A model generated the notes under the pieces. It had not been told where the DNA came from, made no database searches, and was given only the letters and a program-made list of their open reading frames with translations. The position numbers and the translations under genes are program-made. DNA of 56,102 nucleotides from Flavobacteriales bacterium (GTDB lineage Bacteria; Bacteroidota; Bacteroidia; Flavobacteriales_D; Crocinitomicaceae): positions 1 through 56,102 of the forward strand of contig JABXHO010000024.1 in the NCBI GenBank assembly GCA_013373595.1. The letters are read 5' to 3'. Every line of letters starts with the position of its first letter. Position 1 is the stretch's first letter. Below, piece after piece: positions 5,945-11,407 of this stretch.

Positions 5945-6057
5945 TCCTAGGGTTGAATGAGTAATGGAGAAATCAATCCAACTTTTTCCTGAAACGTAAT
6001 TCCTTTACGTACCATCGTGCTATATTGTGAACGATAACCCACTGAAGGAGTGCCAAC

Positions 6058-8694
6058 ATGGAAAATTTCCAATCGAAAATAACTGAAATTAAGGACGAAG
6101 CCGGACGATTGTACCGATTGAAACTAAGCGACGACTTGCTGTTCACCGAAGCGAATAATGTTTCAAAAAATAAGCTCGATGAATTGCTTCAAACGTATGC
6201 TGGAAGCAAAGGGAAGCCTGTCAATTTCATGCGTGAACGAATCATCCGAATGTTGCTTGAAGGAAAGCGTGTGACCAAAGAAATGCTCGATACCATGATT
6301 GAGCAAGATCACAATGCAGCCGACAAAAATAGCTTTCAAGCTTGGGGATATTTCTCGATTTTATTTCCGATTGTTAGTAAAGATTTATCCTTCAATGTAA
6401 AGGAGTTTATGCGCGATTTCGGACAGGAATTGATCACTAAATTAGATCTCAAAGAGCATGTAGCAAAACCCTTCGTTGTTGACTTTAAAGGACCGCGAAA
6501 TTTCGGTTCTGACAATGTATGGATGGCAATTTACAACAAATCGAACCCCAAACACACCACCGCCATTCAGTTCTTCATTCAAATCGATTACCGCGGATTG
6601 ATTGTTCATCTTTATGATCGTTTAAAAGATCACTTCATCAGCTCTCGAAAAATTGAGATTGACTTGGAAATGGAAAAACAAGTGGAAATCTTTGGGAAAA
6701 TTGTAAAGGATAAGGTGATTGCAGATCGAAATGAGGAGAGTGAGGGAAGATACCGTGAGTTGGGGGTGAAAACGAATAAGATTTTTAAGATCTCTCATGG
6801 AACGGAATTTTTTCAAACAGCTGAGGAAATTCAATATTGTATCGATCAGAACATTGTGGTGGTGCACGAAGCAACACGGTCAAAAGGAAAACCAGCGACA
6901 ACTCAATATGAGAATTTTCAGAAGGCAAAGGCAGGTGACTTGTTCTATTTATGCTGGGGAAATTCTCGGTTTCTCTTGATCGGTCAATTTGCCGACGATA
7001 AAATAGAAGATTACAAGTACACAACAGATACAGGGTGGAAAAAACGAAAATATCGCTTCTTGTATGATGCGGTGTCGGACCAGTCGTTTGCGGGATCATC
7101 GAAGTGGTGGACACCTAACAATCCTTCAACTTGCATTCAAATTCCAAAGAATGAATATGAACTTGCCAACGATCTCATTTTTCGGCATTACTTCATGGTT
7201 GAACTAAAAACCGATTTCGATACCGAACTTCTCCTGCCAAAACTCGGTGCAGCATCGCGCCAAAAAATTTCCATCGATGAATACGTTGAGCCGAAATTGG
7301 AAGTCAATTTGATAGCCAGAGAACTAACAGGCATTATCGATAATCTCGATAAGAACAAGGGACAAATGATCGGCATTTTTGGAAGCTGGGGAAGAGGGAA
7401 AACCTTTTTGTACGGGCAAATGCGTGATTACATCAAGGGCAACAAAGAGCTTCACTTCGATTACGAACATTTTACCTTCAACGCGTGGAAATACCAAGAA
7501 ACGGAAACCGTTTGGGCCCATTTATACGACTCTTTACTGGAAGGATATATGGGAAATGCCAATCGATTCGGTCGTTTTTGGAAAACCATTCGACTCAATA
7601 TTGCACGAAAAGGTTGGTGGCCACTTTTTGGAAGCGTTGGTAGTTTATTGGTGACAATTTGCCTTACGTATTTCGTTTCCACTTCCTTGAAACTTGAAAT
7701 TGCTCAATGGCTCGTCGGTATTTTTGGAAGCGTTATCGGCGTGGTACAGGCCATTTACATTTATTGGCGATTCTATCAACCGCTTAAATCGACTTTGCTA
7801 TTGTATATTTCGCAGCACAACTACCAGGAAGTGTTGGGATTGCAATCGAGTATTCAACAAGAATTGACTGTATTGGTGAAGTTGTGGCTCAAGAATCATG
7901 AAGCGAACAAAGAGCGTAAACGTCTTTTACTTTTCGTGGACGATCTCGATCGTTGTCAAGAAGAAAAAATCATTAGCGTACTTGATGCCTTGCGCGTGAT
8001 GCTCGATAATCCAGAGTTAGTGGAATGCATCATTGTTCTTGTGGCGGTGGATGAGCAATTACTGAATCGAGCCATTCATTTCAAGTACCGAAACTTCAAA
8101 TTGAACGATCAACCCTACGCCAAAAATCTCGTGGAAGAATACATGGACAAATTGTTCATTGCCGGCATAAAATTGCCGAAGCTCAATCCAGTGGAACAAG
8201 GTGTGATCCTTCGCAATTATGCGATCAATAATGAAATTTTGGAACGTGTGACATCGAAGGAAACGGATGAGACAACGACCGTTGTGGAGCCAATTTCCGC
8301 AGCAGAAGAAACGACGGAGGAGTTAATTTTCCCAGAAGCAAATCCACGCGAGTACATCGAATCGCAATCTGAGTATTTTCTCCTCGAAAAAGAAATGGAA
8401 TGGCTCAACACATACGCTGATAAACTAAGTCCAAGCGTGACACCACGCCAATTGCGGATTTACATGTATCGTTACTTGCTCGCGAAAAATATCGCTTCCG
8501 ATTATTTGTGGCAGCGCACGGGGGAAAGTCAACTTTCCGATGACTATTGTGAGTTTTTAGCCGAGGCAATTGCACGAAGGTCGAATCAATCGGGCTTTTT
8601 TGGTTTCCAAGGAGATTATCATTTCGACAAGGTACAAAACCCAACCTTAAAAGCATTTACGGGCAAATTAGTAGAGATCGTTGTGCCGTATTAG
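6058..8694 (+). CDS. KAP P-loop NTPase with N-terminal EVE/PUA-like and MrcB-N-like regions
   Basis: 878 residues. The NTPase core has Walker A at 442-449 (GSWGRGKT) and Walker B at 627-632 (VDDLDR, followed by CQ), both in KAP-family form. Two membrane helices are inserted between them (about 520-543 and 548-571), also a KAP trait. Residues about 1-230 are helical, then contain a segment with FGSDNVWMAIYNK resembling the MrcB N-terminal domain (weak). Residues about 245-390, with KAGDLFYLCWGNSRFLLIGQ and WWTPNNPSTCIQIP, look like an EVE/PUA-type module; in related proteins these read modified bases in DNA. KAP NTPases include PifA, which excludes phage T7. An AAGGAG stands 7 bases before the start, strong for this phylum. 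A membrane-anchored defence protein is plausible but unproven. Confidence 0.8.
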   Translation: MENFQSKITEIKDEAGRLYRLKLSDDLLFTEANNVSKNKLDELLQTYAGSKGKPVNFMRERIIRMLLEGKRVTKEMLDTMIEQDHNAADKNSFQAWGYFSILFPIVSKDLSFNVKEFMRDFGQELITKLDLKEHVAKPFVVDFKGPRNFGSDNVWMAIYNKSNPKHTTAIQFFIQIDYRGLIVHLYDRLKDHFISSRKIEIDLEMEKQVEIFGKIVKDKVIADRNEESEGRYRELGVKTNKIFKISHGTEFFQTAEEIQYCIDQNIVVVHEATRSKGKPATTQYENFQKAKAGDLFYLCWGNSRFLLIGQFADDKIEDYKYTTDTGWKKRKYRFLYDAVSDQSFAGSSKWWTPNNPSTCIQIPKNEYELANDLIFRHYFMVELKTDFDTELLLPKLGAASRQKISIDEYVEPKLEVNLIARELTGIIDNLDKNKGQMIGIFGSWGRGKTFLYGQMRDYIKGNKELHFDYEHFTFNAWKYQETETVWAHLYDSLLEGYMGNANRFGRFWKTIRLNIARKGWWPLFGSVGSLLVTICLTYFVSTSLKLEIAQWLVGIFGSVIGVVQAIYIYWRFYQPLKSTLLLYISQHNYQEVLGLQSSIQQELTVLVKLWLKNHEANKERKRLLLFVDDLDRCQEEKIISVLDALRVMLDNPELVECIIVLVAVDEQLLNRAIHFKYRNFKLNDQPYAKNLVEEYMDKLFIAGIKLPKLNPVEQGVILRNYAINNEILERVTSKETDETTTVVEPISAAEETTEELIFPEANPREYIESQSEYFLLEKEMEWLNTYADKLSPSVTPRQLRIYMYRYLLAKNIASDYLWQRTGESQLSDDYCEFLAEAIARRSNQSGFFGFQGDYHFDKVQNPTLKAFTGKLVEIVVPY

Positions 8695-8896: not shown

Positions 8897-9226
8897 TTAG
8901 TTTTCCAATCCCATATGGTTGTCCAGCGTTGTTCCAGAAATTACAAATTTGAGGTCATCTCCGTTCGGATCGTATTGGAACATTTGTCCAAATGTATTGT
9001 CTTTTCCAGCTTCGACCCACGCTTTCATCTGAACCATTTCTCCAGCCTCCAACGAAGGGATTTTTTTCTTCAAATCCATGGTCCGCGTCTGTCCCAAGGG
9101 AAAGTTGTCATGATTGGGAACATCTCCCTGTTTATGTCCCTCATCGTTGTAGTAGATACAGTGGATGTCACACACAAATCCTCCTTGATTTGTCAATGTA
9201 AACGACTTTACTTTTCTAAGTCCCAT
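8897..9226 (-). CDS. Small beta-sandwich protein resembling the thiol-cytolysin C-terminal domain
   Basis: 109 residues without a signal peptide. The order of features fits the stand-alone domain found at the C-terminus of thiol-activated cytolysins and in many single-domain proteins: an early TNQGGFVCDI strand, a middle segment with LGQTRTMDLKKKI, and the ending FVISGTTLDNHM, where the GTTL motif is characteristic. In cytolysins the domain contacts the target membrane. Stand-alone versions have no settled role. The gene is transcribed alone, has its own terminator, and converges on the KAP gene. The match is from memory of the pattern and is moderate. Confidence 0.5.
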   Translation of the reverse strand: MGLRKVKSFTLTNQGGFVCDIHCIYYNDEGHKQGDVPNHDNFPLGQTRTMDLKKKIPSLEAGEMVQMKAWVEAGKDNTFGQMFQYDPNGDDLKFVISGTTLDNHMGLEN

Positions 9227-9379
9227 AGTAATTGTTTTTATGTTAGACTTTAAAATTCTGAGAATGGCAGTGCGTTTTCAAGAGTGATTACACGTGATTT
9301 TAGAGAATAGGTGAATGTACGTGGAGGGAATACATAACTATTTCTTTGGTGTTTGTTTTATTAAGGGATGTCCACTTTC

Positions 9380-9420
9380 TTCAAAGATTTATTAAGGCAG
9401 GATTACTTGCTTTAAAGTTC
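9380..9420. repeat. Dispersed repeat, copy A
   Basis: The first 22 bases (9380-9401) match 19 of 22 bases of 11009-11030, and the following TTACTT...TTTAAAGT part is also similar. It lies in the 227-bp gap between two minus-strand genes, which otherwise shows nothing recognisable. Confidence 0.4.
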
Positions 9421-9453
9421 AGAATGTGAGCTTATCAACTAACCAAATGCAAT

Positions 9454-10587
9454 TTAGAATAAGAAGAAAGATAGACAGAAGAGGATGGCGAATCCTAGCA
9501 TAAACAGGGAGTTCATCCCCACTTCTTTCCACGAGTTTGTATAGTTCCCTGTCTCTTTGTCCTTGTTCATTATTGGTAATCCAAGGAGGAAAATAGCGAA
9601 ACCAAGAAAAAGCAATTTATCAAACCACGAAGCATTCTGATGAAAAAGGACGTAGTATTCATTTTGAATCGATTCGAAAGGGTAGAAAATAGGGAAGATA
9701 CTCGTCACGATGAGCGTCAGAATGATGATGTTTAGTATTCGACACAGGAATTTTATCCAAGCTTTTTGTTCAGTGTATCCCTTCTCACTCAACAAGTACG
9801 AAACATTGATATTCACTAAATTACACATATTCAAGACGAAAATCTCTCCTGGGATGGGTTTCTTCTCGCTGATTTTGGGGTGGGTAAATGCAGAATTGTG
9901 ATTTTTAACTTCCTTCAACGTATATCGACTTGCATCCATGAGGTAGAGGTTGTCCAGTTTAGAAGGATCGCTCGGAAGTAAGTCGTAATCAACGACGTAA
10001 CCAGAGTAAAATTCATTCTCTCCGCCATTGCTAATTAAAACATCTACTTTTGATAACTCAACAATTTTTTTCTTACCGTTTTCGCTCGCTTTCCCTAAAA
10101 TGTTAGCGGCACTTTTGAACTTTTTGAATTCGAAAATTTCTCCACTAAATATATAGTACCACTGATTTTTAAAGCGTAACATTTTGATGTGTTTATCCAA
10201 GCTCCATGCTCGAATCAACCTGGAAAAAATAATACCACTCAAAAACGAAAGTCCATAAACAATAAGTAGGTAATAGCCAAAATGCACGGGATTTTCAATG
10301 AGCATTTGAGCTTCTTCGTTTTCAGCAATTTTCTGGTTGTTTACCGTCTCAAAAAAGGATAATACATGTATACTATCCACAGAAATCCAACCCAATTTCT
10401 TTCCGATCAAAAAACTTAGAATTTCGATAATGGATCCCGGAATAATCCCGAAAAGGAGCTGTTTGGTAATATTGTCCTTCGGATTAAATTGTTTACTAAA
10501 CTCGCCAAAATAGTAGCTTCTCAGAAATAGAAATCCTGGAATTACGATAGTAAAAAACAAGACAAGAAACCCTGTAGTAAGGCTCAT
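9454..10587 (-). CDS. DUF6338-type membrane protein
   Basis: 377 residues. It opens with a membrane helix and the phrase IPGFLFLRSYYFGEF, the start typical of DUF6338 proteins. A second helix near 46-62 and a third near 105-122 follow, then a soluble middle (about 130-275) with a VLISNGGENEFYSGYVVDYD segment, then two or three C-terminal helices. The function of the family is unknown to me. The short gene at 10616-10861 ends 28 bp upstream on the same strand, so the two are probably one operon. Neighbours in this stretch are equally uncharacterised. Confidence 0.6.
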   Translation of the reverse strand: MSLTTGFLVLFFTIVIPGFLFLRSYYFGEFSKQFNPKDNITKQLLFGIIPGSIIEILSFLIGKKLGWISVDSIHVLSFFETVNNQKIAENEEAQMLIENPVHFGYYLLIVYGLSFLSGIIFSRLIRAWSLDKHIKMLRFKNQWYYIFSGEIFEFKKFKSAANILGKASENGKKKIVELSKVDVLISNGGENEFYSGYVVDYDLLPSDPSKLDNLYLMDASRYTLKEVKNHNSAFTHPKISEKKPIPGEIFVLNMCNLVNINVSYLLSEKGYTEQKAWIKFLCRILNIIILTLIVTSIFPIFYPFESIQNEYYVLFHQNASWFDKLLFLGFAIFLLGLPIMNKDKETGNYTNSWKEVGMNSLFMLGFAILFCLSFFLF

Positions 10588-10615
10588 AGTGGTTAATATG
10601 GTTAGTAGATAATGA

Positions 10616-10861
10616 TTAGTTCAGGTCAACAACAGGATTTTCCCAAATGCCTGTTTCTCGTTGTTTGCGTGCAGAGGCTTCAAAAGCTGCGTCAATCTTC
10701 CGCTTTTTGTCAGGATCATTGATCGCTTTCAAACCTTTGTCCGAGATAATGTCCGTTTTGGAATCAGAGAAGATATCAGCCACAACTTTTACAATGGCAA
10801 CGGTAAGTACCGCACCAACGAGTGCACCCCAAAAATCATTATTTGTATTTGATTTGCTCAT
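10616..10861 (-). CDS. Small single-helix membrane protein, unknown
   Basis: 81 residues. A glycine/alanine/valine-rich helix (ALVGAVLTVAIVKVVADIF, about residues 13-31) is followed by a charged tail with repeated K/D/R residues. I do not recognise the family. It precedes the DUF6338 gene by 28 bp on the same strand, and the pair may act together in the membrane. Confidence 0.55.
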   Translation of the reverse strand: MSKSNTNNDFWGALVGAVLTVAIVKVVADIFSDSKTDIISDKGLKAINDPDKKRKIDAAFEASARKQRETGIWENPVVDLN

Positions 10862-11194
10862 TTACGTAAAGATACGAAAGTAATCATTGTTTATTGACGA
10901 ATCGTTGTTAAAATTATATAAGTGCTTGTTTTTGAGTGTAAATTGATTCGATGGTAGAACGCATTCAAGCGAATTTGTTACGTAAAAGCATGAAGCAACG
11001 CCCATTTTTTCAAAGTTTTATTAAAGTAGGGGTAGTTACTTTGAAGTATAAAGTAATTGGAGTTAACAACAAAATGCTGAATCACATAACTGTTTTATTT
11101 CTGAGCTTAAAACGTATACTCGACTTTCTTCATTTCCAATGGCTTGATTTTAATAGTTATAAATTTTAGATTTAGCTTCTAATACTCCGCAACC
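10862..11194. other. Gene-poor stretch with a repeat copy
   Basis: This AT-rich interval separates the DUF6338 operon from the small secreted protein at 11195. It contains the repeat copy at 11009-11056. A 72-codon frame at 10951-11169 runs across the repeat but has no recognisable domain and unusual composition, so I do not call it a gene. Confidence 0.4.
11009..11056. repeat. Dispersed repeat, copy B
   Basis: This is the fullest copy. Bases 11009-11030 match copy A (9380-9401) in 19 of 22 positions, and 11036-11055 match copy C (8811-8830) in 18 of 20. The core includes TTATTAAAGTAGG and ACTTTGAAGTATAAAGTA. No flanking target duplication was noticed. Confidence 0.4.
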
Positions 11195-11407
11195 ATGATC
11201 AAACTACTGCTATCATCCGCTCTTTTTGTCGTAGTGTCGGCATCAAGTAATTCAACCAAAGTCTATATCTGCGATTCTGAGAATTCCGTGGCGTATCATT
11301 ATACGAAGAATTGCCGTGGCATTAAACCATGCACGCACGATGTGCTGGAGGTAACTGTCGTCAAAGCGAAAGAGAAAGGCTTGCGATTGTGTGGTTGGGA
11401 GGATTGA
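11195..11407 (+). CDS. Small secreted cysteine-rich protein
   Basis: 70 residues. A short signal peptide (LLLSSALFVVVSAS) is followed by VYICDSENSVAYHYTKNCRG, then CTHDVLEV and the ending LRLCGWED. The four cysteines and the histidine are arranged as in a family of small periplasmic proteins common in Bacteroidota, somewhat like Ada-type metal-binding modules (Y-H-x3-C-R pattern). Metal binding or disulfide formation is likely; the role is unknown. A 23-codon membrane ORF follows after 15 bp. Confidence 0.65.
   Translation: MIKLLLSSALFVVVSASSNSTKVYICDSENSVAYHYTKNCRGIKPCTHDVLEVTVVKAKEKGLRLCGWED

Follow-up and report, generated by a model that had tools for sequence, protein, structure and literature searches.

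A McrB-type head joined to a membrane KAP NTPase: a candidate single-gene defence protein in a Flavobacteriales bacterium

Introduction

Can one gene couple the reading of foreign nucleic acid to an effector seated in the cell membrane, with both functions on a single chain? The question is raised by a gene of a Flavobacteriales bacterium of the family Crocinitomicaceae (6058..8694, forward strand, ATG start), whose 878-residue product combines a McrB-type N-terminal head with an NTPase of the KAP family. PifA, which is responsible for phage exclusion by the F plasmid, is one of the defence proteins with which this NTPase is compared below. The gene lies in a contig stretch of 56,102 nucleotides, the whole of which is referred to here as the window. 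A preliminary description of this DNA had singled the gene out as a defence candidate, and we examined its architecture, relatives, distribution and neighbourhood with that proposal in mind.

Results

A KAP NTPase core with two inserted hydrophobic segments

KAP_NTPase (PF07693) was the sole Pfam family above its curated cut-off in the 878-residue protein, spanning residues 418–804 (7309..8469; all features within the gene are on the forward strand) with an E-value of 2.8e-26 and scoring 92.9 bits where the cut-off is 20, and no nuclease domain was found in the protein with Pfam. A Walker A motif, GSWGRGKT (residues 442–449; 7381..7404), and a Walker B motif, VDDLDR (residues 627–632; 7936..7953), bracket two hydrophobic segments of 19 residues each, delimited at a mean Kyte-Doolittle threshold of 1.5, at residues 523–541 (7624..7680; mean 1.82) and 546–564 (7693..7749; mean 1.53), both of which are likely transmembrane helices. 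On this core the preliminary description, which had read a KAP NTPase from its Walker motifs and a pair of membrane helices lying between them, was borne out by the Pfam match and the hydropathy profile. A third segment, residues 647–665, lies C-terminal of Walker B and barely reaches the threshold; it is probably protein core rather than membrane. Two segments between the Walker motifs are also present in three of the relatives introduced below (L009, L010 and L011), and L026 has one above the threshold. The full-length structure model (pLDDT 40.6) was of too low a quality to be used in fold comparison.

Upstream of the gene, a Shine-Dalgarno-like AAGGAG (6045..6050, forward strand) is placed 7 nt 5' of the ATG. 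It had been called unusual, which is right locally: among the 43 window ORFs of at least 150 aa, counted with mechanical starts and after dropping ORFs largely covered by longer ones, AAGGAG occurs within 20 nt upstream of the KAP gene alone, with AAGGA at one further ORF. As a family feature the site was rejected, since it does not stand at the same place in the four relatives compared: in L009 and L010 the 100 nt before the gene contain no AAGGAG, in L011 it lies 61 nt before the gene, and L026 has only GGAG, at 16 nt. A second short sequence, CTATATTGT (6020..6028, forward strand), was noticed by eye; it recurs ahead of the KAP genes of L009 and L010 and is a possible promoter element.

The head is built from two modules that recur in McrB proteins

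No Pfam domain was detected in residues 1–420. The region comprises two modules. Module 1 (residues 1–200; 6058..6657), without a Pfam family, is predicted to consist of a helical part followed by a beta sheet; module 2 (residues 241–380; 6778..7197) is probably the EVE/PUA-like part, and carries the invariant residues SHG, GD and WW.PN..ST. With tblastn, residues 55–186 matched in three haloarchaeal plasmids, residues 232–388 in a 149-aa protein of an Azospirillum plasmid (L019) and residues 242–379 in the gut phage NatCom_35866 (L021); three of the four plasmid head matches were opened, the one left out being Natrinema. Genome searches added two Bacteroidota McrB proteins, matched at residues 18–178 (L030) and 112–177 (L031). 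When viral contigs (IMG/VR) were searched with the module-2 alignment, 3 of 154 pattern matches were relatives (L032, L033 and L034), while scans of viral contigs with the whole protein or with module 2 as a single sequence returned no relative. Queried with the whole protein, tblastn recovered only the same module-2 match in phages; the plasmid search gave 15 records, all of them short of 80% query coverage.

We then scanned with Pfam nine of the ten loci outside the KAP family in which a head match had been found. Eight of these nine (L020, L021, L022, L030, L031, L032, L033 and L034) are McrB loci, in which AAA_5 is accompanied by an adjacent McrC (PF10117). Module 1 was found in L020, L022, L030 and L031, and module 2 in the McrB proteins of L021, L032, L033 and L034, as well as on its own in the ninth locus, where the Azospirillum protein (L019, 8016–8465) consists of module 2 alone, without a Pfam match. 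An EVE domain was detected by Pfam in the same chain in L021 and in L030 to L034. In Halosimplex, module 1 and AAA_5 share one chain, followed by McrC; in Haloarcula (L022), head and AAA_5 are annotated as two separate genes, again followed by McrC; and in L030 a C5 cytosine methylase comes after McrC. Outside the KAP clade, L030 and L031 are the only loci that may have both modules, in the same order, module 2 being tentatively recognised there from a 23–24% MAFFT alignment. Module 2 has 25 columns that do not vary among its KAP, McrB and stand-alone partners, and a profile–profile comparison of module 2 with the McrB module that lies beside EVE gave a weak match (E 0.0061, probability 6%). 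Judged by these sequence comparisons, each head module also occurs in McrB proteins.

The gut phage locus also contains an array of its own (L021, 2385–11564): behind a gene annotated as a DNA methyltransferase lie the McrB gene (module 2, EVE and AAA_5), McrC, a PLD protein and a T5orf172–ResIII protein.

The company that these modules keep bears on what the head might bind. Domains of the EVE superfamily are described in PMC11090510 as recognising modified DNA or RNA. The head might read RNA, either modified or of phage origin, in the way predicted for CoCoNuT, a branch of the McrBC systems. The head's relatives nevertheless sit in McrB–McrC pairs, which may act on DNA, one of them with a DNA cytosine methylase, and we regard RNA reading as very unlikely.

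A predicted EVE/PUA-like fold outside the catalogued families

The preliminary description had likened the N-terminal modules to MrcB-N and EVE/PUA. In kind this held, in that both modules recur in McrB proteins, but the literal assignments did not. MrcB_N (MrcB_N/DUF3578, PF12102) matched none of 8 module-1 sequences and EVE (PF01878) none of 7 module-2 sequences at E-values up to 1, and in hhalign module 1 gave E-values of 0.29 against EVE and 0.35 against one MrcB_N sequence, so that either family name was rejected at the family level. Module 2 did align with 11 EVE sequences over 41 columns near the GD hairpin, weakly (E 0.0041, probability 8%). Profiles of either module, and the single head sequence, retrieved nothing significant among PDB sequences. 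An absence of EVE/PUA or MrcB-N similarity in profile searches had been named beforehand as grounds for abandoning the proposal; Pfam alone finds such an absence, which we do not take as a refutation because the same modules occur in McrB proteins.

An AlphaFold2 model of the head (residues 1–411, built from four sequences; moderate, pLDDT 64) had as its best PDB match in Foldseek the EVE-HNH protein VcaM4I (6yex; prob 1.00, E 4.4e-3, matched residues unlisted), followed by an ASCH protein (prob 0.94), and none of the 279 PDB matches reached an E-value of 0.001 or better. Among BFVD models, an uncharacterised protein from a phage ranked first (prob 1.00, E 5.6e-4); ASCH-type proteins came second and fourth, and DUF3850 fourteenth. 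From its strand order, we infer that module 2 is the part of the head that these structures match. The EVE/PUA-like fold proposed earlier thus has fair support for module 2 from the model, tempered by the moderate quality of that model and the unlisted residue range of the match, and we take module 1 to be an uncatalogued McrB head domain. Both modules could be catalogued as new families, being without a Pfam match in the sequences scanned.

A small, patchily distributed clade

Four further proteins share the architecture of the window protein. Two are 74% identical to it, in L009 (the same contig as C23 of genome G022) and in L010 (the same contig as C178 of genome G032), the latter up to residue 829; a third, from Flavivirga (L011), is 59% identical, and a fourth, of 916 aa (L026, genome G248), is 32% identical, with a KAP match at E 4.5e-26. 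Together with the window protein these formed one KAP clade (local support 0.935) whose sister group consists of the short-headed L012–L016 (0.988), the two groups together being supported at 1.000. The tree, inferred with FastTree and midpoint-rooted, comprised 39 KAP proteins, i.e., 12 named ones and those from 27 of the 29 loci L036–L064. It left out L049 and L060, from which the Walker text filter retained no protein, the KAP matches L005, L006 and L008, the fragment L018, and weaker KAP places for which no locus had been made. Between the window protein and those of L009 and L010, pN was ~0.17 and pS 0.76–0.78; on these sequences, protein change is held back while synonymous sites are saturated, and because of this saturation no whole-gene dN/dS value is given.

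The conservation of the head relative to the rest of the protein speaks to whether it has a part in sensing. A KAP part that senses phages by itself, with the head as a mere scaffold or protein-binding part, would be in keeping with the short heads of the sister clade and with Tmn, a KAP family NTPase for which PMC11846954 calls the mechanism of defence unexplored. Against this, the head is kept about as well as the KAP core, each module being 75% identical to its L009 counterpart and the KAP parts outside the membrane segment 74–82%, and the invariant module-2 columns extend to McrB and stand-alone partners; such sensing by the KAP part alone appears to us quite unlikely.

Members of the sister clade carry other heads or stand in other surroundings: L014 has an AlbA_2 head, an Eco57I-type methylase precedes L012, and L016 is flanked by a PLD-helicase and GmrSD. 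These heads and neighbours hint at an effector family that swaps its heads.

Across genomes, matches that include the head were rare. They were found in 2 of 33 other genomes of the same genus (G022 and G032), in none of 3 further genomes of the same family and in none of 23 of the same order. In larger draws, and with the own genome counted each time, they amounted to 3 of 399 genomes for the order, 2 of 395 for the phylum (the own genome and the McrB-bearing G677) and 2 of 395 for the class (the own genome and the McrB-bearing G887); the KAP part alone was present in 38 of the 395 phylum-draw genomes, own included. By these searches the KAP gene is accessory and patchy, not core. The earlier concern that homologues might prove to be core genes in all relatives is thereby answered, with only two of the 33 congeneric genomes carrying the gene.

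A non-defence role is conceivable because PcdA of Staphylococcus aureus, a McrB-family protein with two EVE domains, was turned into a division-plane factor, according to PMC10602043, and the window protein might similarly have been co-opted for housekeeping, e.g., for anchoring DNA or marking the division site at the membrane. The rarity and scatter of the gene weigh against such a role, not decisively, because PcdA is also lineage-limited; overall, we find co-option highly improbable.

Type I restriction-modification genes lie near two of the five loci

Next to the KAP gene, the window contains four small genes with counterparts in G032. They encode a 109-aa protein (8897..9226, reverse strand; 84% identical copy at L090 1837–2166), a 377-aa protein convergent with the KAP gene (9454..10587, reverse strand; 83% identical copy, adjoining the KAP gene end), an 81-aa protein (10616..10861, reverse strand; 93% identical copy in the same block) and a 70-aa protein (11195..11407, forward strand; 67% identical copy in the same block, there adjoining HsdM). 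None of the four has an NCBIfam match, and the first three match no known family. The set occupies 8897–11407 in the window and 160–2624 of L090 in G032, with a different gene order. The G032 contig that carries the last 50 residues of the KAP gene continues with the 377-, 81- and 109-aa genes, small ORFs and HsdM (PF12161, PF02384), which is 94% identical to the HsdM of G022; in the latter genome, the KAP gene is followed by HsdM and HsdS. By eye and with a few scans, we saw no HsdM beside the KAP gene in the window, L011 or L026; inspection by eye and scans of a few neighbours likewise gave no evident restriction gene for L011 and L026.

In PADLOC, none of 10 further window proteins matched at E-values up to 0.01, and 5 nearer ones yielded only JAB (E 0.025), which was dismissed along with matches to Syntaxin and PIF1 (E-values 0.025–0.14). 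Defence neighbours are found in G022 and G032, where type I genes lie beside or near the KAP gene, and none that convinces among the 15 window proteins scanned. Repeats near the gene, which had been offered as a further hint, are short low-identity families that add nothing, and they were set aside.

These neighbours raise the alternative that the KAP protein assists type I restriction-modification, serving as a gate, a localiser or a back-up when restriction fails, with a head that binds host-methylated DNA instead of phage modifications. Besides the arrangements in G022 and G032, a second KAP NTPase of the own genome (999 aa, HU-CCDC81-like head; L091 9500–12499, contig C44) is flanked by HsdM and HsdS, and HsdR follows further downstream. 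On the other side, no restriction-modification gene was found adjoining the KAP gene in three of the five loci (window, L011 and L026), as judged by eye and from the few scans, and we consider the accessory role unlikely.

The own genome also holds one McrC match (PF10117), which does not adjoin the KAP gene. It is on contig C154 (L093 5259–9154), with an 887-aa ORF directly upstream that is probably McrB, and no protein of this locus matched the 878-residue protein in blastp at E-values up to 1.

Discussion

The combination of a McrB-type head with a KAP NTPase is real and uncommon. The domain make-up, the sequence kinship of each head module to McrB proteins, the five-protein clade, the patchy distribution and the restriction-modification neighbours in two relatives are all observed directly. 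As to function, the reading that we favour, while holding it tentatively, is a single-gene, membrane-anchored defence protein in which the McrB-type head reads nucleic acid and the KAP part acts at the membrane. The two head modules, which elsewhere precede the McrB AAA domain, would read foreign or modified nucleic acid; this would switch the KAP NTPase, which the helix pair between its Walker motifs would anchor in the inner membrane, into an ATP-driven assembly; and the assembly might harm the membrane or block phage entry, so that the infected cell is stopped. A type IV restriction reader would thus be coupled to a membrane effector of the Tmn or PifA kind, in place of the McrB GTPase and the McrC nuclease. 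The effector side of this proposal is plausible because PMC11846954 reports inhibition of several phages by Tmn, likewise a KAP NTPase and one with two transmembrane domains.

A more specific form of this proposal, restriction without a nuclease, in which a McrB-type reader of modified DNA is wired to the membrane NTPase and recognition kills or arrests the cell, is possible but somewhat doubtful. If it were true, the KAP clade would represent a general effector that swaps nucleic-acid-reading heads, of McrB type here and AlbA_2, HU-like or short in relatives. Coupling of a McrB-kind reader to a membrane NTPase would link two separate branches of bacterial immunity, would offer a candidate trigger for KAP defence proteins such as Tmn, and would allow reader and effector to be studied apart within one gene.

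Comparison with known systems

In the open-access papers searched, we found no description of a McrB-type head combined with a KAP NTPase. The term "KAP" does not occur in the main text of a review of EVE domains (PMC7641849), which presents modification-dependent readers coupled to nucleases or McrB, and appears in that of PMC11090510 only within "Kaposi".

Among known defence proteins, PADLOC matched the window protein to QatA, PDC-S20 and PifA at E-values from 2e-11 to 0.002, in each case within the KAP part. QatA resembles the window protein in the KAP core (E 4.4e-16 for residues 415–719 with the NCBIfam model, E 2.3e-11 with that of PADLOC), but the score of 58.7 bits is far from the NCBIfam cut-off of 600 (NF041923), and the head has no QatA match. 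PifA matches the Walker A region (residues 418–492, E 3.8e-8), although this match is limited to a short stretch. By its description in PMC11846954, Tmn resembles the window protein in being a KAP NTPase with two membrane segments, and differs in that a McrB-type head, which the window protein has, goes unmentioned for Tmn in that account.

On the side of the head, the modification-dependent endonuclease VcaM4I (EVE-HNH) provides the best PDB match to the predicted structure; whereas VcaM4I carries a nuclease, the window protein carries a KAP NTPase and no Pfam nuclease domain. McrB, in McrBC systems and in the EVE-McrB architecture, shares head modules 1 and 2. The McrB proteins of L021 and L030–L034 have a Pfam EVE domain that the window protein lacks, and in the latter, AAA_5 and an adjacent McrC are absent, the head being joined instead to a KAP NTPase with membrane segments.
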